DNA from: Actinomycetota bacterium
GTDB taxonomy: Bacteria > Actinomycetota > Acidimicrobiia > IMCC26256 > PALSA-610
Reading direction: 5' to 3'
Length of the DNA stretch: 37,786 nucleotides
NCBI GenBank assembly: GCA_003134555.1
Contig: PLBO01000122.1
Location: 38,389 to 76,174, forward strand
The position numbers and the translations under genes are program-made. The stretch's first letter is position 1. Every line of letters starts with the position of its first letter. Below, piece after piece: positions 1 through 9,072 of this stretch. A model generated the notes under the pieces. It made no database searches, was not told the origin of the DNA, and saw only the letters and a program-made list of their open reading frames with translations.

Positions 1-176
1 TTCTCGCGCACGACGACGAAGTCGATGTCGCGGTCCTCCAACGACGACAGCAGCAGGAACGGGCTCCCGGCCGGGCCCCAAGGCGCGACCTCGAACCGGT
101 GCGCGTGCGGGAAGCCGGGCAGGCCCGCCGGGAAGGTGATCTCGGCGACGTCGGTCGCACTGTGGGTCTCGAGCAT
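1..176 (-). CDS. fliW: Flagellar assembly factor FliW (3' part cut by window edge)
   Basis: Only the first 58 codons are inside the window. They run from an ATG at 176 and stay open to base 1. The peptide contains FPAGLPGFPHAHRF followed by SPFLLLSSLEDRDIDFVVV, which matches the FliW amino terminus (GLPGFE..RF, then SPFL.LQS..D). In Firmicutes, FliW binds flagellin and antagonises the translational repressor CsrA, so that hag/flagellin mRNA is translated when flagellin is exported. The gene starts 7 bases after the flgL stop, and AGGGA within that junction can serve as ribosome binding site, so it is probably cotranscribed with flgN-flgK-flgL. A csrA gene often follows fliW, but that stretch lies outside the window. 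Confidence 0.85.
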   Translation of the reverse strand, partial: MLETHSATDVAEITFPAGLPGFPHAHRFEVAPWGPAGSPFLLLSSLEDRDIDFVVVRE

Positions 177-183
177 GGTTTCC

Positions 184-1074
184 CTACTTCAAGAAGTCGG
201 TGAGCGACGGCTGGATGGCCCTCGCGGTGGCCGCAAGGGCGGCCTGGTAGGCGACTTGCTGGGATTGGAGTTGCACCATCACCTGCGCGATGTCGGCGTC
301 CTCGATACTGGACAGGTTCTGTTTCATCGTCAGCCCGTTCGAAGTGTTTTGGGTCTGCATGGTTTGAACTCGAAGAAACTGGCTGCCGACCTGCGCCAGC
401 TGGTTCTGCACCTGGGTCGTGCGCCCACCCAAGGTGGCCTGGAGCGCACTCAACTGCGCCGGGTTGGTCTGCACCGCCTGCGAGATCTGCGCGAGGGTCG
501 TGAACAGATCGTTTCCGGGCTGTCCGAACACCGTGTCGCCGTTCACGTTCACTTGGACACGCTGTCCGGGAGCGATGTTGCGCTCGACCGCCGACGACAC
601 GCCCACGTACTGCCCGTTGGCGTCGTAAGCGACGTTGCCGCCCGCGGTCCCGGCGAAGATGGGGCGTCCCGCGTACTGAGTGTTGGCGACACCGATCAGC
701 GTGTTGCGAATCGAGTCGATCTCGGCCGCAATGCCTTGGCGGGCGTTCGCGTCGGTCGACGCGTTCGCGGCCTGCACGACGAGGTCGTTGACGCGCTGCA
801 GCTGCGTCACCGTGGTGGTGAGCGCGTTGTCGGCGTTGCCCAACCAGCCCTGCGCATCGCTGAGATTGCGCGTGTACTGGACGTTGCGATCGATCCCGGC
901 GTGCAGCTGCATGGCCGAGACGACGTCGGCCGGCGCGTCGGACGGCTTGCGCAGGCGCTTGAGCGAGGATGCCTGGTCCTGGAGGTCGGTGAGCTTCGCA
1001 AAGGATTGCTGGAGCGCGCTGAGCGAGTTGTTCACCAGCAACTGGTTCGGGACGCGGAAGTCGGACGACGGCAT
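184..1074 (-). CDS. flgL: Flagellar hook-filament junction protein FlgL
   Basis: A 296-residue protein, close to the usual length of about 300 for FlgL (HAP3). The N-terminal flagellin-like helix is clear: VPNQLLVNNSLSALQQSFAK, then a heptad-rich segment ending in KPSDAPADVVSAMQL. The C-terminal helix (IEDADIAQVMVQLQSQQVAY) is the matching coiled-coil partner of the flagellin fold. HAP3 sits between HAP1 (FlgK) and the filament. The gene follows flgK by 16 bases and precedes fliW by 7, consistent with one leftward operon flgN-flgK-flgL-fliW. The KPSDAP motif and the position after flgK separate it from flagellin itself. Confidence 0.92.
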   Translation of the reverse strand: MPSSDFRVPNQLLVNNSLSALQQSFAKLTDLQDQASSLKRLRKPSDAPADVVSAMQLHAGIDRNVQYTRNLSDAQGWLGNADNALTTTVTQLQRVNDLVVQAANASTDANARQGIAAEIDSIRNTLIGVANTQYAGRPIFAGTAGGNVAYDANGQYVGVSSAVERNIAPGQRVQVNVNGDTVFGQPGNDLFTTLAQISQAVQTNPAQLSALQATLGGRTTQVQNQLAQVGSQFLRVQTMQTQNTSNGLTMKQNLSSIEDADIAQVMVQLQSQQVAYQAALAATARAIQPSLTDFLK

Positions 1075-1090
1075 CAGACATTTTCCCCGC

Positions 1091-2776
1091 TCACACGCCG
1101 GTGCGGTTGATCAAGGTGTCGAGCATGGAATCGATGGTCGTCATCAACCGGGCCGCGGCGTCGTACCCGTGCTGGAACTCGACCAGGTTGGTCATCTCCT
1201 CGTCGATGCTGACCCCGGACTGCTGCGAACGCGCGTTGTCGAGGCTCTGGGTCGCGCTCTGCTGGATCTGGTGCCGGCTCGTCGCGGTCTGGGTGTCGAC
1301 ACCCAACTGCACGATCGCCTGGCGATACACCGAGTCGGAGCCGTTGGGGCTCGTCGCGAGGTCGGCGAGATCGAGCGCGTTGCTGCTGTCGAGCGGCCCG
1401 CCCGCCGCGGTGCCCGCGGCGATCGCGGCCGGATTGCCCGCGACCACGGCCGATACCGCGAGCGACGCCGCGTCGGTACCCGTGAAGAACTGTCGTCCGC
1501 CCACGCCGTCGGAGCCGACCGCGGTCGCTCCGAGCAATGTGGCGAAGCCCGTCGTCGCGCCCGTCGACCGAACCTGCAGCTGGTGCGCTCCCGTCGGCGC
1601 GATACCGATCGAGAGCGCGCTCCCGTTGCCGCCCGAGACCGTCGCCGTCGCGTTACCCGCGCCTACGGCGGCATCGACTGCGGCCTGCAGCGCGGTCTGT
1701 AGCGTCGCCGCGCCACCCGGGCCCGACCAGTCGGCGCCCGCGAGCGTCACGGTCGCGAACGCGCCGTTGTCGAGCGCGACGTCGAACGTCAGATTGCCGT
1801 TCGCGCTCTGGTCCTGGCTGCCGACGGCGAGTGAGCCGGCGATCGCGCCGTGCAGCTGGTTCACCTGGTCGCGCAGCGTCGTCGCGACGGTGTCGAGTTT
1901 TGCGATGTAGCTCGGGATCGTCCCGTTGATCGCGTCGAGCTCACCGCCCGCCTTGCCGGACGTGACCGACGCCGCCGAGTTGTTCGCCGACCAGCGCAGG
2001 ACGGTGGCCGGACCCGACGTGTCGACGGTGAGCGCGGAGGCGGTGTCCTCCTGTACGAGCGAAGTGCCGTTCAGCATCACGTTGACCTGGTTGAACGGCC
2101 CCGCACGCAGACTCGCGCCGCTCTCCTCCGACAGCTGGTTCGCGAGCAGATCACGCTGGTCCTGCAGGTCGTTCACCGGAAGGTTCGCGATCGTGTTCAC
2201 CTTGATCGCCTGGTTGAGCTGCGCGATCGACTGCGCCTTCGAGTTGATGTCGGCGACCGTCGCCCCGAGCTCGCTCGTCGTGTCCAGCTTCTGTTGCGCC
2301 AGGTTCTGACTGATCGCGTTGAAGCTCGCGGCGAGGGTGTCGGCCCGCTCGAGCAGCTGCGTTCGCGATGCGGTATCGGCCGGATTGTTCGCGACGTCGT
2401 CGAAGCCCGCCCAGAGATCGGAGAGTTGCTTCTGGATCCCCGAGTCGGACGGCTCGTTGAACAGCTGCTGGATTGCATTCATCGTCGACGACGCCTGATC
2501 GAGGCTTGCCATCGAGCCGTGCTGGAGGGCGGCGCGCATCTCCATGAACTGGTCGCGAAAGCGCGTCACCGAGTCGACCTGCACGCCTTGGCCGTCGCCC
2601 GTGAACTTCGAGAACAACGCGGGCCGGGCGGGAGCGCCGATGTTCACGAGATTGACGGCTTGGCGCGAGTAGCCCGCGGTGTTCGCGTTCGCGACGTTCT
2701 GCGCCGCGACCTGGACGCTGCGCTGCTGCGCCTGGAGCGCGGTGAGCGCGAGGCGCAGCCCCGAGAAGTCCGACAT
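1091..2776 (-). CDS. flgK: Flagellar hook-associated protein 1 FlgK
   Basis: A 561-residue protein, within the FlgK range. It begins with the rod/hook family signature (LRLALTALQAQQRSVQVAAQ, then NVANANTAGYSRQ at about residues 27-39) and ends with the FlgK C-terminal helix (GVSIDEEMTNLVEFQHGYDA, then AARLMTTIDSMLDTLINRTG). Residues of about 320-410 look like a beta-rich, Gly/Ala-rich insertion typical of the surface-exposed D2 region. HAP1 joins hook to junction and filament. The ATG at 2774-2776 shares one base with the flgN stop (TGATG), and GAGG lies 7 bases upstream, so chaperone and cargo are translationally coupled. No frameshift or missing block is seen. Confidence 0.95.
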   Translation of the reverse strand: MSDFSGLRLALTALQAQQRSVQVAAQNVANANTAGYSRQAVNLVNIGAPARPALFSKFTGDGQGVQVDSVTRFRDQFMEMRAALQHGSMASLDQASSTMNAIQQLFNEPSDSGIQKQLSDLWAGFDDVANNPADTASRTQLLERADTLAASFNAISQNLAQQKLDTTSELGATVADINSKAQSIAQLNQAIKVNTIANLPVNDLQDQRDLLANQLSEESGASLRAGPFNQVNVMLNGTSLVQEDTASALTVDTSGPATVLRWSANNSAASVTSGKAGGELDAINGTIPSYIAKLDTVATTLRDQVNQLHGAIAGSLAVGSQDQSANGNLTFDVALDNGAFATVTLAGADWSGPGGAATLQTALQAAVDAAVGAGNATATVSGGNGSALSIGIAPTGAHQLQVRSTGATTGFATLLGATAVGSDGVGGRQFFTGTDAASLAVSAVVAGNPAAIAAGTAAGGPLDSSNALDLADLATSPNGSDSVYRQAIVQLGVDTQTATSRHQIQQSATQSLDNARSQQSGVSIDEEMTNLVEFQHGYDAAARLMTTIDSMLDTLINRTGV

Positions 2777-3261
2777 CAGATCGCCTCGTCGACGATCCGC
2801 AATGCGAGCGAGCGGTCGGGCAGCGTGCCGTGGGCGTCGTAGGCGTCGATGTCGATCTCACCCATCGCGGCGATGGCCTCGCGCGCGGCTTGGTGGCCGC
2901 GCTGCAACAGATCGCGGTTCGACTTCGTGATCGAATCGATCTCCTGCGCGAGCGTGAGCAACGCGCGGCGGTGCTCGGCGAAGATGCCGTCCCACGGCGA
3001 CGTGGTGAGACCCGCGAGCTCGCGCAACGTCGGTGACCCCGACAGACCGAGATCCCGACCCGCGTCGGCGACGAGCACCGCGCGCTCCAGCTCGATGCGC
3101 TTGATCTCACCGAGCACGTTCTCGACTTCGCGGGTCGCGTAGGCGAGCCAGCGCGACCGTCCCGCCGCGAGCACCAGCTGTTCCTCTTCGAGCTTGAACA
3201 CGAGAAGCTCGAGTAGCTGCCGTTCGCGCCACAGGATGTTCGATACGTCGCTCAGCGCCAT
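2776..3261 (-). CDS. flgN: FlgN-family flagellar export chaperone
   Basis: A 161-residue, mostly helical protein. The N-terminal segment (SNILWRERQLLELLVFKLEE) and the following helix with basic residues match FlgN-type chaperones, which are 140-160 residues, all alpha, and bind the C-terminal helices of FlgK and FlgL to deliver them to the export gate. Sequence conservation in the family is low, so the call rests on helix pattern, length and position directly upstream of flgK with a one-base overlap. The ATG at 3259-3261 has GAGG 7 bases upstream. It is the first gene of the leftward flgN-flgK-flgL-fliW group, after a 242-base gap to the upstream regulator gene. Confidence 0.8.
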   Translation of the reverse strand: MALSDVSNILWRERQLLELLVFKLEEEQLVLAAGRSRWLAYATREVENVLGEIKRIELERAVLVADAGRDLGLSGSPTLRELAGLTTSPWDGIFAEHRRALLTLAQEIDSITKSNRDLLQRGHQAAREAIAAMGEIDIDAYDAHGTLPDRSLALRIVDEAI

Positions 3262-3294
3262 AATCCGACCTCGAGGCCCGCTGTTACCGGTGTC

Positions 3295-3302
3295 TCATCG
3301 GC
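3295..3302 (-). promoter_or_regulatory. Possible sigma-28 type -10 element upstream of flgN
   Basis: Reading leftward, GCCGATGA lies 34 bases before the flgN start, one base off the FliA/WhiG -10 consensus GCCGATAA. A good TAAA -35 is not present at the expected distance, so this is only a candidate. A FliA promoter here would fit late-gene control of flgK/flgL by the sigma factor encoded at 4387-5268. Confidence 0.25.
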
Positions 3303-3427
3303 CAGAACCCGACCCAAGATGAAGGAACCCACTCGTGGTCTCCGACCCGCCGGACCGAGCGGACGGCCAAACAAGTCCCAAGCTGCACCGAGTGACCAGA
3401 AGGGAGCGCTTACGCGCTGTGCGTGTT

Positions 3428-3455
3428 GTTCACTCGCGCTGGCGAGTTCACTCGC
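3428..3455. repeat. Short direct repeat in a structured intergenic region
   Basis: GTTCACTCGC occurs at 3428-3437 and again at 3446-3455, a period of 18 bases. It is surrounded by overlapping inverted repeats (ACTCGC/GCGAGT, and CTCGCTGCGCTCGCTC just after). The 242-base gap 3262-3503 between the regulator stop and the flgN start has no convincing gene. This structured block may be the transcriptional boundary between the two leftward genes. Confidence 0.4.
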
Positions 3456-3503
3456 TGCGCTCGCTCACCGCTTCGTGCGATCCCCGTTCCGCGGGCGTGC
3501 GAA

Positions 3504-4205
3504 TCAACCCATCAGGCCGAGCGCTACCGCTCGGCCTAATGCCTCATTGCGGTTACCCGCTTCGAGCTTGGCGTAGACGCGAACGAGGTGGGACTTCACG
3601 GTGGCCAGCGACACGGACAGCGCGCCGGCGATCTCACGATTGCTGCGGCCCTCGCCGAGGAGCACGAGCACCTCGCGTTCGCGCGAGGTCAGGATGTCGA
3701 CCGTCCGGTCCGAGAGGGCCGGCAGCGCGACCGCGCCCGACAGCGCCTGGTGCAGGGCCGGGACGACGTGCCGGCCGCCCTTGCGCGCCGCGTCGACGAC
3801 CACGCCGAGCTCGTCGGCGTCGATCGTCCGCAGTGCGATGCCCGCGGCGCCGAGTGCGAGGAGGTAGCGCACGGTGTGCTCCTGCGCGGGCGGGAGGAGC
3901 ACGACGATCTCCGGATGGGGGCGCAGGCGCACGAGCCGGCGGACGACGTCGGCCACGTCGAGATCGGCCGGGGCGCCGACGACGACGAGATCGGGCCGCT
4001 CCATGGTCGCGAGACTCACGAGCTCACGACCCGAGCGGGTCTGCGCGAAAACCTCGATGCCCCGCGCCTCGAGCACCGCGGTGATGCCCGCGCGAACGAG
4101 GCCGAGCTCGTCCGCGACGATCGCTACGGGTGCTGCCCCGGAATCGTCGGCGCGTGCTTCGTCCGAGGACTCGCCGCTGCTGCTTGCGCTCCCACCGAGC
4201 ACCAT
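3504..4205 (-). CDS. LuxR/NarL-type regulator with a degenerate receiver domain
   Basis: A 233-residue protein. Residues 1-24 are a Ser/Glu-rich, probably disordered tail. Residues 26-150 follow the receiver fold (VAIVADELGLVRAGITAVLE at the start). The position of the phospho-acceptor Asp reads PDLVVVGAPADLDV, so Asp is replaced by Gly or Ala, and the conserved Lys region reads ALRTIDADEL with Arg in place of Lys. Residues 170-230 are a standard GerE/LuxR helix-turn-helix (LTSREREVLVLLGEGRSNRE, then IAGALSVSLATVKSHLVRVYAKL). The ATG at 4203-4205 has GGAGG 6 bases upstream and is preferred to the adjacent GTG. It is probably a phosphorylation-independent regulator. The place between fliA and flgN suggests flagellar control, which is inferred. 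Confidence 0.82.
   Translation of the reverse strand: MVLGGSASSSGESSDEARADDSGAAPVAIVADELGLVRAGITAVLEARGIEVFAQTRSGRELVSLATMERPDLVVVGAPADLDVADVVRRLVRLRPHPEIVVLLPPAQEHTVRYLLALGAAGIALRTIDADELGVVVDAARKGGRHVVPALHQALSGAVALPALSDRTVDILTSREREVLVLLGEGRSNREIAGALSVSLATVKSHLVRVYAKLEAGNRNEALGRAVALGLMG
3514..3537. other. Perfect hairpin at the 3' end of the LuxR-type gene
   Basis: AGGCCGAGCG, loop CTAC, then CGCTCGGCCT forms a 10-bp perfect stem inside the last codons (LGRAVALGL). No T-run follows on the minus strand. It may be an attenuator, or simply a by-product of Gly-Arg-Ala-Leu codon choice. Confidence 0.25.
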
Positions 4206-4339
4206 CACGCGCCTCCCAGCGGTCGTGATCCGTAAACGCTACCTTCCGCGAACGCCCAAGCCACGCAAAGCGGTCACTTCTTTCAACCCCGAGACCGATC
4301 AAGAGCTTGGCCCCTCGCCGCCGAAGTTTGCGTCCAACA

Positions 4340-4356
4340 TCCACAAAACCTGTGGA
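4340..4356. promoter_or_regulatory. Inverted repeat upstream of fliA
   Basis: TCCACA-AAACC-TGTGGA is a 6-bp inverted repeat with a 5-base loop, ending 30 bases before the fliA start. It lies in the 181-base gap (4206-4386) between the divergently transcribed regulator and sigma factor genes, so it is a candidate operator for either. Confidence 0.3.
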
Positions 4357-4386
4357 CACCTGCAGAAGGAACCGGGGGCAACGGAC

Positions 4387-5268
4387 GTGAAGCCAGCACA
4401 GAAGGCCGACATCGACATCGAGCGGGCGACCTACGAAGACAACCTCGTGCGCCAGCATCTCCCTCTCGTCCAGTATGTGGTCTCCGAGGTGGCACATCGG
4501 GTCCCGAGCCACGTCAGCCGCAGCGACCTCGTGTCGGCCGGGATGCTGGGCCTCGCCCAGGCCGCCCGGAGCTACGACCCGGAGCGCGGGATCGCGTTCG
4601 ACCGCTTCGCCTCGACCCGAATCCGCGGCGCGTTGCTCGACGAGCTGCGCGGCCGCGACTGGGCGAGCCGCTCCGTGCGGGCCCGGGCCCGCGGGCTGCA
4701 AGCGGCCAACGAAGAGCTCATGAACCGGCTGGGGCGTACGCCCACTCCCGAAGAGGTCGCGAAGATCCTCGACGTGCCGACCGAGACCGTGCACAAGCTC
4801 GTCGACGACGTTCACCGCGCGACGGTGCTCAACTACGACTCGCTCGTGCTGGAAGGTGACGCCGAGTCGTTCATCGCCGGTGACGAGGTCGGCCCCGAGG
4901 ACGCGATCCTCGACCGCGAACGCAAGGCCTACCTCGTCGACGCGGTGCACGCGCTCCCCGAGCGTCTGCAGCGGGTCGTCACGGGCTACTTCTTCGAAGA
5001 GCGCTCGATGCAGGACCTCGCCGACGAGCTGGGCGTGAGCGAGTCACGTATCTCCCAGCTACGCGCGGAAGCGCTGTTGCTCCTGAAGGACGGCATCAAC
5101 TCGCAGCTCGAGCCGGAAGCGGTGACGCCGGAGCCGCGTCCGAACGGCCGGGTCGCGCGCCGCAAGGCTGCGTACTACTCGGCCGTCGCAACCGGGTCGT
5201 CGCCGCGTGAGCGGGTTTCGGAGCGACCGGTCACCACGACCGAGATGGTCGGTATCGCGAATTCTTGA
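4387..5268 (+). CDS. fliA: FliA/WhiG-family RNA polymerase sigma-28 factor
   Basis: A 293-residue sigma-70 family protein of the FliA/WhiG class. Region 2 (about residues 17-85) includes LPLVQYVVSEVAHRVPSHV, SAGMLGLAQAARSYDPERGI and FDRFASTRIRGALLDELRG. Region 3 covers NEELMNRLGRTPTPEEVAKI. Region 4 reads LPERLQRVVTGYFFEERSMQ followed by DLADELGVSESRISQLRAEA. The GTG at 4387 is chosen because it follows GGGGG/AAGGA and gives the family start length; the frame is open further upstream but without family similarity. FliA directs late flagellar genes, and WhiG directs sporulation genes in Streptomyces. The flagellar neighbours favour the FliA role here. The stop TGA overlaps the TTG start of the flhA fragment. 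Confidence 0.93.
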   Translation: MKPAQKADIDIERATYEDNLVRQHLPLVQYVVSEVAHRVPSHVSRSDLVSAGMLGLAQAARSYDPERGIAFDRFASTRIRGALLDELRGRDWASRSVRARARGLQAANEELMNRLGRTPTPEEVAKILDVPTETVHKLVDDVHRATVLNYDSLVLEGDAESFIAGDEVGPEDAILDRERKAYLVDAVHALPERLQRVVTGYFFEERSMQDLADELGVSESRISQLRAEALLLLKDGINSQLEPEAVTPEPRPNGRVARRKAAYYSAVATGSSPRERVSERPVTTTEMVGIANS

Positions 5269-7082
5269 CGGAGTCCGGCCCCGGAAAGCCTCAGCTCCCG
5301 GGGTCGGTCGCCGACGAGGAAAAGTTCCGGCCGAAACATCGGCGGGAGTGCATTGAGGAGCCCAGGGACCTGGGCGAGCAGTTCATCGTGATCACGAACG
5401 GTGCCGGGCGCGTCGCCGAGGTCGCAGCGCGCTTCACCCTCGACGCAATGCCCCGCAAGCAGATGGCGATCGACGCCGACCTCAACTCGGGTCTCATCAA
5501 CGAGCAGGAGGCGAAGCGGCGGCGGGGCGAGGTTGCGGAAGAGGCCGACTTCTACGGCGCGATGGACGGTGCCTCGAAGTTCGTGAAGGGCGACGCGATC
5601 GCCGCGATCGTCATCGTCGCGATCAACCTCATCGGTGGGTTCGCGGTCGGCATCCTCCAGCAGCACCTGTCGTTCGGCGACGCGATCAAGACGTACAGCC
5701 TCCTCACCGTCGGCGACGGCCTGGTCGCGCAGATCCCCGCGTTGCTCATCTCGCTCTCGTCGGGCCTGATCGTCACCCGAGCCGCGACCGAGATGGACCT
5801 CGGCTCCGACCTGTTGCACCAGTTCACGCGGCACAAGAAGACGCTGCAGCTCGGTGGTGGCGCGATCTGCGCGGTCGCGATCGTTCCCGGTCTGCCCAAG
5901 GTTCCGTTCTTCATCGTCGGCGGCGCGCTCCTCCTACTCGCGACCAGAGTGCCCAGCGACGACGAGATCGCGGCGCGTGAAGCCGCGGCGAAGGAAGTCG
6001 AGATTGCTCCCATCGAGCTCTCTCCCGACTCACCGGAGCACCTCGTCGGCGAGATGCGCGTCGAACCGCTCGAGCTCGAGATCGCGTACGACCTCATCGA
6101 CCTCGTCGACGCGTCGAAGGGCGGCGACCTGCTCGACCGCGTGCGCGCGCTTCGGCGCAAGCTCGCGCTCGAGCTCGGAGTCGTGATCCCGCTCGTCCGC
6201 ACGCGCGACAACCTCGAGCTCCCGGCCAGCACCTACGCGGTGCGCGTCAACGGCGTCGACGTCGGGCGGGGCGAAGCGCCGGCCGGCCACGTGCTGGTCC
6301 TCGGCGACGACGCGGGCGCGCTCCCGGGTATGCCGACGCGCGAACCCGTCTTCGGCCTTCCGGCCACGTGGGTGCCGACCGAGTTCCGTCATCAGGCCGA
6401 GATCACCGGCGCGACCGTCGTCGACCGCGCATCCGTCATCACCACGCACCTCGCGGAAGTCGTGCGCCGCAACGCGGGTCGTCTGCTGAGCCGCCAGGAC
6501 GTGAAGATGCTCGTCGACGTGGTGACGCAGAGTGATCCCGTCGTGATCGACGAGCTCAACGGCGCGAACGTGACCACGGGCGAGATCCAACGCGTGCTCC
6601 AGATGCTCCTCGACGAAGGCGTCGGCATCCGCGACCTCGTGCGGATCTTCGAGGTGATCTCGGAGCGCTCCCGAGTGACGAAGGACGCCGAGCAGATCGT
6701 GGAAGCAGTGCGTACCGCGCTCGGCCCCGCGATCTCGTCGTCGTACGCGAAGGACGGCAAGCTCCCCGTCATCACTCTCGATCCGCTCGTCGAGCATGCG
6801 CTGGCGGAGACGCTGCGCACCGGCGATACCGGCAGCTTCCTCGCGCTCGATCCGCAGACCGCGGAACAACTCGCCCTCGCGGTCGCCCGCGAGGCCGAGG
6901 CCGCGGAGATGAAGGGCATCGAACCCGTTTTCGTCTGCGCGACCCAGCTACGGCCGTCGGTTCGCCGGCTGCTGCACGCGGCCGCGCCCCGTCTTCCAGT
7001 TCTTGCGTACACAGAGCTCGGCGCGCAGCTCGAGCTCGACACGATTGGAGTGGTGAACCTTGGCCAGCCAGCTGCGGTTTGA
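5265..7082 (+). CDS. flhA: Flagellar export gate protein FlhA, lacking the N-terminal membrane block
   Basis: A 605-residue reading frame starting with TTG inside the fliA stop (TTGA). Similarity to FlhA begins abruptly near residue 39 (FIVITNGAGRVAEVAARFTL) and continues to the end. Three membrane-spanning segments (about 111-132, 149-172 and 197-226) and the whole cytoplasmic domain are present. FlhA is normally about 690 residues with eight membrane helices; the first roughly 110 residues with TM1-TM4 are absent. Residues 1-38 are hydrophilic and resemble no part of FlhA. The highly conserved MPGKQMAID motif reads MPRKQMAID (Arg64). FlhA is the export-gate platform for FlgN/FliS/FliT-cargo complexes, so a protein without TM1-TM4 may not work. 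Alternatives are an assembly deletion, a pseudogene, or a second complete copy elsewhere. Confidence 0.85.
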   Translation: MTESGPGKPQLPGSVADEEKFRPKHRRECIEEPRDLGEQFIVITNGAGRVAEVAARFTLDAMPRKQMAIDADLNSGLINEQEAKRRRGEVAEEADFYGAMDGASKFVKGDAIAAIVIVAINLIGGFAVGILQQHLSFGDAIKTYSLLTVGDGLVAQIPALLISLSSGLIVTRAATEMDLGSDLLHQFTRHKKTLQLGGGAICAVAIVPGLPKVPFFIVGGALLLLATRVPSDDEIAAREAAAKEVEIAPIELSPDSPEHLVGEMRVEPLELEIAYDLIDLVDASKGGDLLDRVRALRRKLALELGVVIPLVRTRDNLELPASTYAVRVNGVDVGRGEAPAGHVLVLGDDAGALPGMPTREPVFGLPATWVPTEFRHQAEITGATVVDRASVITTHLAEVVRRNAGRLLSRQDVKMLVDVVTQSDPVVIDELNGANVTTGEIQRVLQMLLDEGVGIRDLVRIFEVISERSRVTKDAEQIVEAVRTALGPAISSSYAKDGKLPVITLDPLVEHALAETLRTGDTGSFLALDPQTAEQLALAVAREAEAAEMKGIEPVFVCATQLRPSVRRLLHAAAPRLPVLAYTELGAQLELDTIGVVNLGQPAAV

Positions 7083-8244
7083 AGGCGGCGAGCTCGAGGA
7101 GCTTCTCGAGCGCGTCCGCACCGAGGTCGGACCGGAGGCGCACATCGTCGCCGCGAACCGGATCCGCCAAGGCGGCATCGCGGGCTTCTTCGCGCGCGAG
7201 GGATTCGAAGTCGTCGTCGATCTGGCGAAAGGCGATCAGGCGGCGAACACCGGGCGCGGGATGCGCGGGCGGCGTTCCCGCGCCGCGAGCACCGCGACGG
7301 CGGCTTCGTCGTCGGCGTCGGTTCTCGACCTCGTCGAAGAGGTGAACCAGGTGGAGCGCGAGCAGGTCATCGACCTCTCGGAGCCCGCGATGTCGACGAC
7401 GGCAACCGTGTCGACCGAGCGTCCGGACTTCGGGACGATGCTCGCCAACCTCACACGCGAGCTCGACGAAGAGGAGGCATCCATGCCCATGACCGTCACC
7501 GACGGACCGATCTCGCCGAGCGCGCACTACCGGCGCGTGACCGCGGACCCGGCCGGCGCGCCGGTCGCGCCCGCGCCCGCGGCGGCGCCCGCGGCGGCAG
7601 CTTCGGAAACGACGCTGCTGCCGCAAGGTGACGCGCGGCTGCTCGCGCTCGGCTTGCCGAACGAGCTCGCGCCGTCGACGGCGGTGACGGGCGACCTGCG
7701 GACCGCGCTGTGCCAGCGCCTCGCGCAGCTCCCCCCTCCGCCGGTGCTCCCCCGCACGACCGGAGTCGTGATCGCGATCGTGGGCATCGGGACCGCGCCC
7801 ATCGCGCTCGCGCGCCGCCTCGCCGACGAGCTCGACATCGATCCCGACCACGTGCTGCTCGCGACGCCCGAAGCGATGAGCGACGTCTCGCATCCCGAGG
7901 AGGCCGAGGCGTTCCGGCGGAGCTGCCGTCGTCGCGCCGAACCGACGATCGTCGCGTGCAGCATCGGTGCCGGTCGGGCGCAGTTGGGATGGGCCCATCG
8001 CATCCTCGACCGGCTCGAGCCGACGATCACGTGGGCCGTCGTCGACGCGTCGTGCAAGGCCGAAGACGTCGGACACCGGATCACGTTGCTCGGCGGCGTC
8101 GACGTCATCGCCATCACCGGCATCGCCGACACCGTCAGCCCGGCTGCAATCCTCGGTCTCGGCGTCCCCATCGGTCGGATCGGCTCCAACCCGGCGACGC
8201 CGGCGGTGTGGGCCGACCTCCTGATGGAACGCCTGGCGCGGTGA
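7060..8244 (+). CDS. FlhF-like protein with a degenerate GTPase domain
   Basis: A 394-residue protein with a TTG start overlapping the last 23 bases of flhA. Residues 5-55 match the FlhF N-terminus (LRFEGGELEELLERVRTEVG, then GPEAHIVAANRIRQGGIAGF and FAREGFE). A Ser/Ala/Pro-rich linker covers about 60-230. Residues 235-394 have the length and rhythm of the SRP-type G domain, but the P-loop position reads AIVGIGTAPIALARR instead of GxxGxGKTT. The G4 position reads ITGIADT instead of TKxD, although GLGVPIGRIG resembles the end of the FlhF fold. FlhF normally places polar flagella and interacts with FlhG. Here GTP binding is probably lost, so it may be a structural pseudo-GTPase. Position after flhA supports the family call. 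Confidence 0.7.
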   Translation: MASQLRFEGGELEELLERVRTEVGPEAHIVAANRIRQGGIAGFFAREGFEVVVDLAKGDQAANTGRGMRGRRSRAASTATAASSSASVLDLVEEVNQVEREQVIDLSEPAMSTTATVSTERPDFGTMLANLTRELDEEEASMPMTVTDGPISPSAHYRRVTADPAGAPVAPAPAAAPAAAASETTLLPQGDARLLALGLPNELAPSTAVTGDLRTALCQRLAQLPPPPVLPRTTGVVIAIVGIGTAPIALARRLADELDIDPDHVLLATPEAMSDVSHPEEAEAFRRSCRRRAEPTIVACSIGAGRAQLGWAHRILDRLEPTITWAVVDASCKAEDVGHRITLLGGVDVIAITGIADTVSPAAILGLGVPIGRIGSNPATPAVWADLLMERLAR

Positions 8245-8257
8245 AGCAGGTCACGTC

Positions 8258-8587
8258 ATGAACCGTCCGAGCGTCGATCCCGCGTTCACCTTCGGGTTGA
8301 GCCTCGCCATCTCATTGCTGCTCTGGTACCCGACCCTGCGCGAGACGATGACCGGCAACATCGAGATCACCGACGCCGGGATTCGCTACTTCCTCGCGCT
8401 CGCGATCTCTTGGGCCGGCGTGTACAGCGTCTCCGCGATCGTCGCGATGTACGCGAGCAAGCCGCACCAACCCGGCTTGCCGCCGCCGCCCGATCCGGGC
8501 GCGCGCGAAGGTGTTCCGGCGCGCCGGCAGGACGACGCCATGGCGGCGGAAGCGCAATCGGAGCGGTCGGACAGCAACGCCGCCTGA
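8258..8587 (+). CDS. Small two-helix membrane protein of unknown function
   Basis: A 109-residue protein not recognised as a known family. It has two hydrophobic segments, at about residues 11-24 (FGLSLAISLLLWYP) and 44-66 (RYFLALAISWAGVYSVSAIV). A hydrophilic Pro-rich and Glu/Ser-rich cytoplasmic-like tail follows. It starts 13 bases after the flhF-like stop, so it is likely the last gene of the fliA-flhA-flhF group and may have a flagellar or envelope role. It ends in a hairpin at 8580-8598, facing the convergent whiB. Confidence 0.65.
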   Translation: MNRPSVDPAFTFGLSLAISLLLWYPTLRETMTGNIEITDAGIRYFLALAISWAGVYSVSAIVAMYASKPHQPGLPPPPDPGAREGVPARRQDDAMAAEAQSERSDSNAA

Positions 8588-8613: not shown

Positions 8614-8907
8614 TCAGGCGGCCGCGTGCGCGGCTTCCCGCGTCTTGCGTGCGGCCTTCTGCCGGCGGCGGATCAGCCGATGCCGCTCGGACGCGGTCAA
8701 GGCGCCCCACACGCCGTCACCGGGCCGGGTCTGGAGCGCGTACTCGAGGCACTCCTCCCGCACGGGGCAGGTCGCGCAGATCGCCTTGGCTTCGTCCGCA
8801 TGCGCCTCCGACGTCGGGAAGAAGACGTCGGTGTCGACGTCGCGGCACGCCGCATCGTCGAACCAATCAGTGCGCGTCATGTCCAAATTCAAAGTGAGAC
8901 GAGGCAT
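8614..8907 (-). CDS. WhiB-family iron-sulfur regulator
   Basis: A 97-residue protein from the ATG at 8905-8907; an in-frame ATG at 8878-8880 would give 88 residues. The four Fe-S cysteines are present (C21, C44, C47, C53 in AACR, ICATCPVREEC), followed by GDGVWGAL, the family G(V/I)WGG turn, here with Ala in the last position. A basic C-terminal tail (HRLIRRRQKAARKTREA) is the usual DNA-binding part. WhiB proteins hold a 4Fe-4S cluster, bind the principal sigma factor and regulate transcription; the class is restricted to actinobacteria and their phages. The frame stays open upstream through the 45-bp repeats, but that stretch reads as a DNA repeat and not as a protein domain. Confidence 0.92.
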   Translation of the reverse strand: MPRLTLNLDMTRTDWFDDAACRDVDTDVFFPTSEAHADEAKAICATCPVREECLEYALQTRPGDGVWGALTASERHRLIRRRQKAARKTREAAHAAA

Positions 8908-8953
8908 AGCGGGCCGTACAACATCCACCCCCCACCCCACATTCCCGAGAATC

Positions 8954-9060
8954 GCTCCCAACTGTTGGGCGCGAAAACCGCTCCACGCGTCCAGAATCGC
9001 GCCCAACTGTTGGGCGCGAAAACGGCTCCACGCGCCTGGAAACGCGCCCAACTGTTGGCG
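8954..9060. repeat. Three 45-bp tandem repeats, each carrying a palindrome
   Basis: The core CCCAACTGTTGG begins at 8957, 9002 and 9047, an exact 45-base period. The best copy is the 19-base inverted repeat GCGCCCAACTGTTGGGCGC at 8999-9017. The first copy has one change at the left arm and the third lacks one G. Between cores, GCGAAAAC(C/G)GCTCCACGCG is also conserved. The array fills most of the 165-base gap between the DUF5666-like gene and the whiB start, upstream of whiB in its direction. It could be a triple operator for a dimeric regulator or a REP-like element. Confidence 0.85.
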
Positions 9061-9072
9061 CGGAAATGGGGG

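Follow-up and report, generated by a model that had tools for sequence, protein, structure and literature searches.

The window, by which we mean the whole 37,786-nucleotide stretch of actinobacterial DNA analysed here, carries flagellar genes on both sides of an unusual join at 5378/5379. The features at the locus are listed below, with reference to G003 and G002, two relatives of the same genus, and to the relative G006.

184-1074, minus strand: flgL (Pfam Flagellin_N, 7e-18), 87.5% amino acid identity to flgL of G003; retained, left of the probable scar
1091-2776, minus strand: flgK (Pfam FlgK_D1, 1.4e-48), reading frame intact; retained
2776-3261, minus strand: flgN chaperone gene (Pfam FlgN, 8e-18); retained
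3504-4208, minus strand: LuxR-type response regulator (Pfam GerE, 1e-15), syntenic in G003; retained
4387-5268, plus strand: fliA, flagellar sigma factor (Sigma70 r2/r3/r4), 92% amino acid identity to G003 and G002; intact
5265-7082, plus strand: flhA open reading frame, 605 amino acids
5269-5378, plus strand: left parent of the join, the intergenic leader ahead of the first flagellin gene, as aligned with both G003:C219 and G002:C249
5378-5379, no strand: probable deletion junction; left-parent similarity fades over 5380-5385 and flhA similarity runs from 5379
5379-7082, plus strand: right parent of the join, flhA from codon 119, without TM1-TM4 and otherwise open (Pfam FHIPEP), 94% amino acid identity to FlhA of G003
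7060-8244, plus strand: conserved gene after flhA, in the same place in relatives; no Pfam family
8258-8587, plus strand: small predicted membrane protein, conserved after the preceding gene (in G006 at L029:16430-16759); no Pfam family

The gene at 7060-8244 is presumably flhF-like, judged by its position only. Further to the right, a tandem repeat at 8948-9066 (a 45-base unit in 2.7 copies) overlaps the called N-terminus of a WhiB-family gene (8614-9051, minus strand), the true start of which probably lies further inside.

The initial annotation had described an FlhA without TM1-TM4, in which similarity to the family begins at residue 39, shortly after the fliA stop codon and behind a 38-residue head unlike FlhA, and all of this was borne out. 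In a profile search, residues 39-588 matched positions 104-655 of the 657 of Pfam FHIPEP, and the score of 657 bits against a cut-off of 29.1 places the protein in that family. The NCBIfam FlhA model matched from position 119 of 678, with 639.2 bits lying below its cut-off of 772.1. In G003, the motif QFIVITNGAGR is preceded by 118 residues that are absent from the window's flhA; a hydropathy scan placed four hydrophobic helices in this front part and none of them in the window's reading frame, which by comparison with G003 lacks the complete N-terminal membrane part. The join lies 110 bases past the fliA stop codon (5266-5268), and the 567 flhA codons downstream of it are open. The reported substitution of Arg for Gly in MPGKQMAID is also real: MPRKQMAID occurs in the window only, and the Gly is kept in 11/11 relative genomes with a readable motif (G006 contributes a twelfth row through its second locus, and L034 begins within the motif). 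FHIPEP is present in 20 of the 100 genomes searched, the window genome included, and among these 20 the gene is full length in 14, partial solely because of contig ends in five, and cut in mid-contig in the window alone.

The two parents of the join were observed directly. On the left, G003:C219 matches window positions 8-3279 at 83.1% and 3511-5385 at 81.6%, and G002:C249 matches 3944-5380 at 80.4%. Beyond the match, both of these contigs carry a ribosome-binding-like stretch and then a flagellin ATG, which identifies 5269-5378 as a flagellin leader and the 38-residue head as that leader read in frame; by these alignments the head is best understood as a chance reading. The window has lost the presumed ribosome-binding stretch of the flagellin, since this falls on the far side of the junction. 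For the right parent, the whole contig (C100) was aligned with 13 loci of 11 related genomes. In 11 of these loci the flhA match starts at C100:43767 (window 5379), and in the remaining two it starts later, at the beginning of the relative's contig; none of the 13 reaches left of 5379. The only sequence common to both parents at the join is CAG (5379-5381). No direct or inverted repeats of at least 10 were found within 5200-5600, an interval that gives no support to a repeat-driven deletion. A search of 3200-5600 against Rfam, with E up to 1, returned no match to an RNA element in the leader.

The spacing and content of the two points in relatives were likewise read directly. In G006, the best-assembled relative (four contigs), the flagellin start (280129) and the flhA point (315230) lie on the same strand and 35.1 kb apart, such that relatives keep a block between points that are adjacent in the window. 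In a further relative, G021, fliA and flhA are about 37 kb apart on one strand. The corresponding interval in G003 is spread over contigs C219, C274 (24,671 bases) and C263, for which the order was inferred from G006, as was the 35-kb size. These contigs carry two flagellins, FliD, FliS, a FliI-type ATPase, FliJ, a FliM/N-type protein, FliP, FliQ, FliR and FlhB, and FliG and a rod protein of G003 were detected by whole-genome family search. In G006 the flagellar cluster lies between the two points.

The core genes tested were found directly to be missing from the assembly of the window genome (G000), a 154-contig draft that is 98% complete. Family searches of this assembly gave no match to FlhB, FliG or FliP, no flagellin (flgL being the sole Flagellin_N match) and no rod or hook proteins except flgK. 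DNA searches with the G003 cluster contigs found no fli or flh copies in G000, only short, chance-like matches and pieces on contigs C105, C96 and C137, and for FliQ and FliR, both encoded on one same-genus contig, a DNA search with that contig found no copy. Across the five families and the DNA searches, the lost genes are absent elsewhere in the genome, and one 0.86-kb non-core piece survives. A full flhA or a separate TM1-TM4 fragment elsewhere in the genome had been suggested as worth seeking, and neither a second FHIPEP match nor such a fragment is present in the assembly. A functional export gate, taken as FliP, FlhB and a full FlhA, is lacking, with the first two absent and the third truncated. 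CheW had no match in G000, nor in G003 or G006, and its absence from G000 therefore says little. The two relatives have flagellar genes yet no CheW-family match, for which their draft state (88% and 85% complete) may account.

We consider it very probable that a large deletion left its scar at 5378/5379, having taken out most of the flagellar cluster, with the flagellin leader at one end and flhA codon 118 at the other. Judging from relatives, the ancestor would have carried flgL-flgK-flgN-regulator-fliA followed by flagellin, fliD, fliS and modification genes; next the rod, MS-ring and switch genes, the export ATPase, hook and motor genes and fliM/N; and at the right end fliP-Q-R and flhB, then flhA and the genes that follow it. 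About 35 kb would have been lost in a single event in this uncultured, Acidimicrobiia-like actinobacterium, with ends that have few bases in common presumably joined through microhomology or end joining. A recent deletion had been among the readings first offered. The deletion stands and looks recent, but its size, by G006, is about 35 kb rather than about 110 residues. The short flhA would then be a stump left by the loss of the cluster in one piece and not a new export machine. The products left would be the sigma factor, the proteins of the hook-filament junction and the rear portion of FlhA, a set predicted from its content to be insufficient for an export gate or a flagellum, from which it would follow that the cell does not swim by flagella.

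The age of the event was approached through the leftover genes, counting sites with at least two outgroup letters and at least 75% of letters agreeing. Synonymous and replacement changes in the window's own lineage and in the G003 lineage, respectively, were 29/11 and 19/14 for flhA, 14/3 and 11/3 for fliA, 21/27 and 18/27 for flgK, 5/3 and 2/2 for flgN, and 4/5 and 3/7 for flgL, the last including one false row (a G002 flagellin, 24.9%). An old, decayed pseudogene is not supported, given that replacement bias is no higher than in the G003 lineage, and the remainder of flhA is open, in agreement with the earlier view that it is not a random decayed gene. Intact leftovers with replacement no higher than in the sister lineage make the loss look recent. 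The absence of decay fits a very recent loss and fits equally no loss at all.

The latter bears on the possibility of a chimeric join, produced by the assembly or the library, in a genome that really has the full cluster but whose assembly or bin does not include it. The genome is a draft in 154 contigs, the remnant genes look fully constrained, and the splitting of flhA by contig ends in five relatives shows that the region can assemble badly. Against this, the parents have only CAG in common at the join, an overlap too short to be bridged in assembly unless reads span it, and the five core families tested are absent, bar the retained flgK and flgL, from a genome that is 98% complete. A piece of the lost cluster also lies rearranged on another contig: an 862-base stretch of the G003 lost region (C274:10544-11405) is found at G000:C105:9179-10037 (L093) at 84%. 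It comprises an intact methyltransferase gene, the portion of the piece that also lies inside the flagellar cluster in G006, and a WbqC-like gene interrupted at about codon 62. Its neighbours on either side are other genes, giving it new flanks, and this stretch of C105 also carries IS240-type transposases and a serine recombinase. The piece is a putative relic of the lost cluster's modification module, one that may have moved before the cluster was lost, and it favours a real rearrangement over a simple assembly join. Weaker DNA matches of the G003 cluster occur on C96 (181 bases, 79%) and C137 (about 170 bases, 72%). We regard a chimera as unlikely.

It is also very doubtful that selection continues to act on fliA, flgK/L/N and the truncated flhA, with the C-domain of FlhA outlasting the cluster in a role outside the flagellum. 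Least credible are the split-gate arrangement raised in the initial annotation, in which another membrane protein supplies TM1-TM4 to the truncated FlhA, and the further idea that this FlhA is kept for a new job: the 567 open codons and the mostly synonymous polarised changes of its own lineage speak for them, but the split gate fails with no second FHIPEP or TM1-TM4 fragment and no partner export gate in G000 (FlhB, FliP, FliG, flagellin and rod genes absent by family search, FliQ and FliR by DNA search), a head that is flagellin leader in relatives, and a presumed ribosome-binding stretch lost beyond the junction.

A large deletion of this kind has a precedent. Xanthomonas fuscans subsp. fuscans 4834-R, which is non-motile, is described as having lost 33 kb with 34 contiguous flagellar genes (PMC3826837). 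As in the window, a contiguous block kept in relatives is gone, and the flanking fliA and flhA are among the genes retained there (PMC3826837). The Xanthomonas scar has an IS element, ISXfu2, whereas the window junction has none, and flhA is listed as present in that strain, whereas in the window flhA itself is cut (PMC3826837); the two organisms also belong to different phyla. Within the window's own phylum, flagella are reported to have been inherited vertically with massive, repeated losses, and flagellated species occur in Acidimicrobiia among other classes; that study scores presence and absence and, in the sections available, describes no deletion scar like that of the window (PMC10746217). 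A survey of partial flagellar gene sets across bacteria likewise reports genomes that, like the window genome, keep leftover genes without a full motor, in its available sections without breakpoint resolution (PMC12199754).

Two members of the window's family, G004 and G005, keep fliA (in G005 as two overlapping pieces), and a family search gave no FlhB, FliG, FliP or flagellin match in either, G005 being only 77% complete. Other losses have probably occurred nearby, given this combination, and on gene content G004 and G005 apparently represent separate flagellar losses. Genes resembling flgN and csrA were seen, by eye only, at L066 (G004:C1:76000-95900) and L067 (G005:C1:1346000-1362000).

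The event adds one more case to a type already described in Xanthomonas fuscans, the loss of flagella through a large deletion. In a phylum with frequent losses, flagellar loss would here be caught at the deletion step, with a junction that is near base-exact and leftovers that are intact. It also provides a caution: a core gene that is truncated yet open can mark the site of a deletion instead of representing a new variant.
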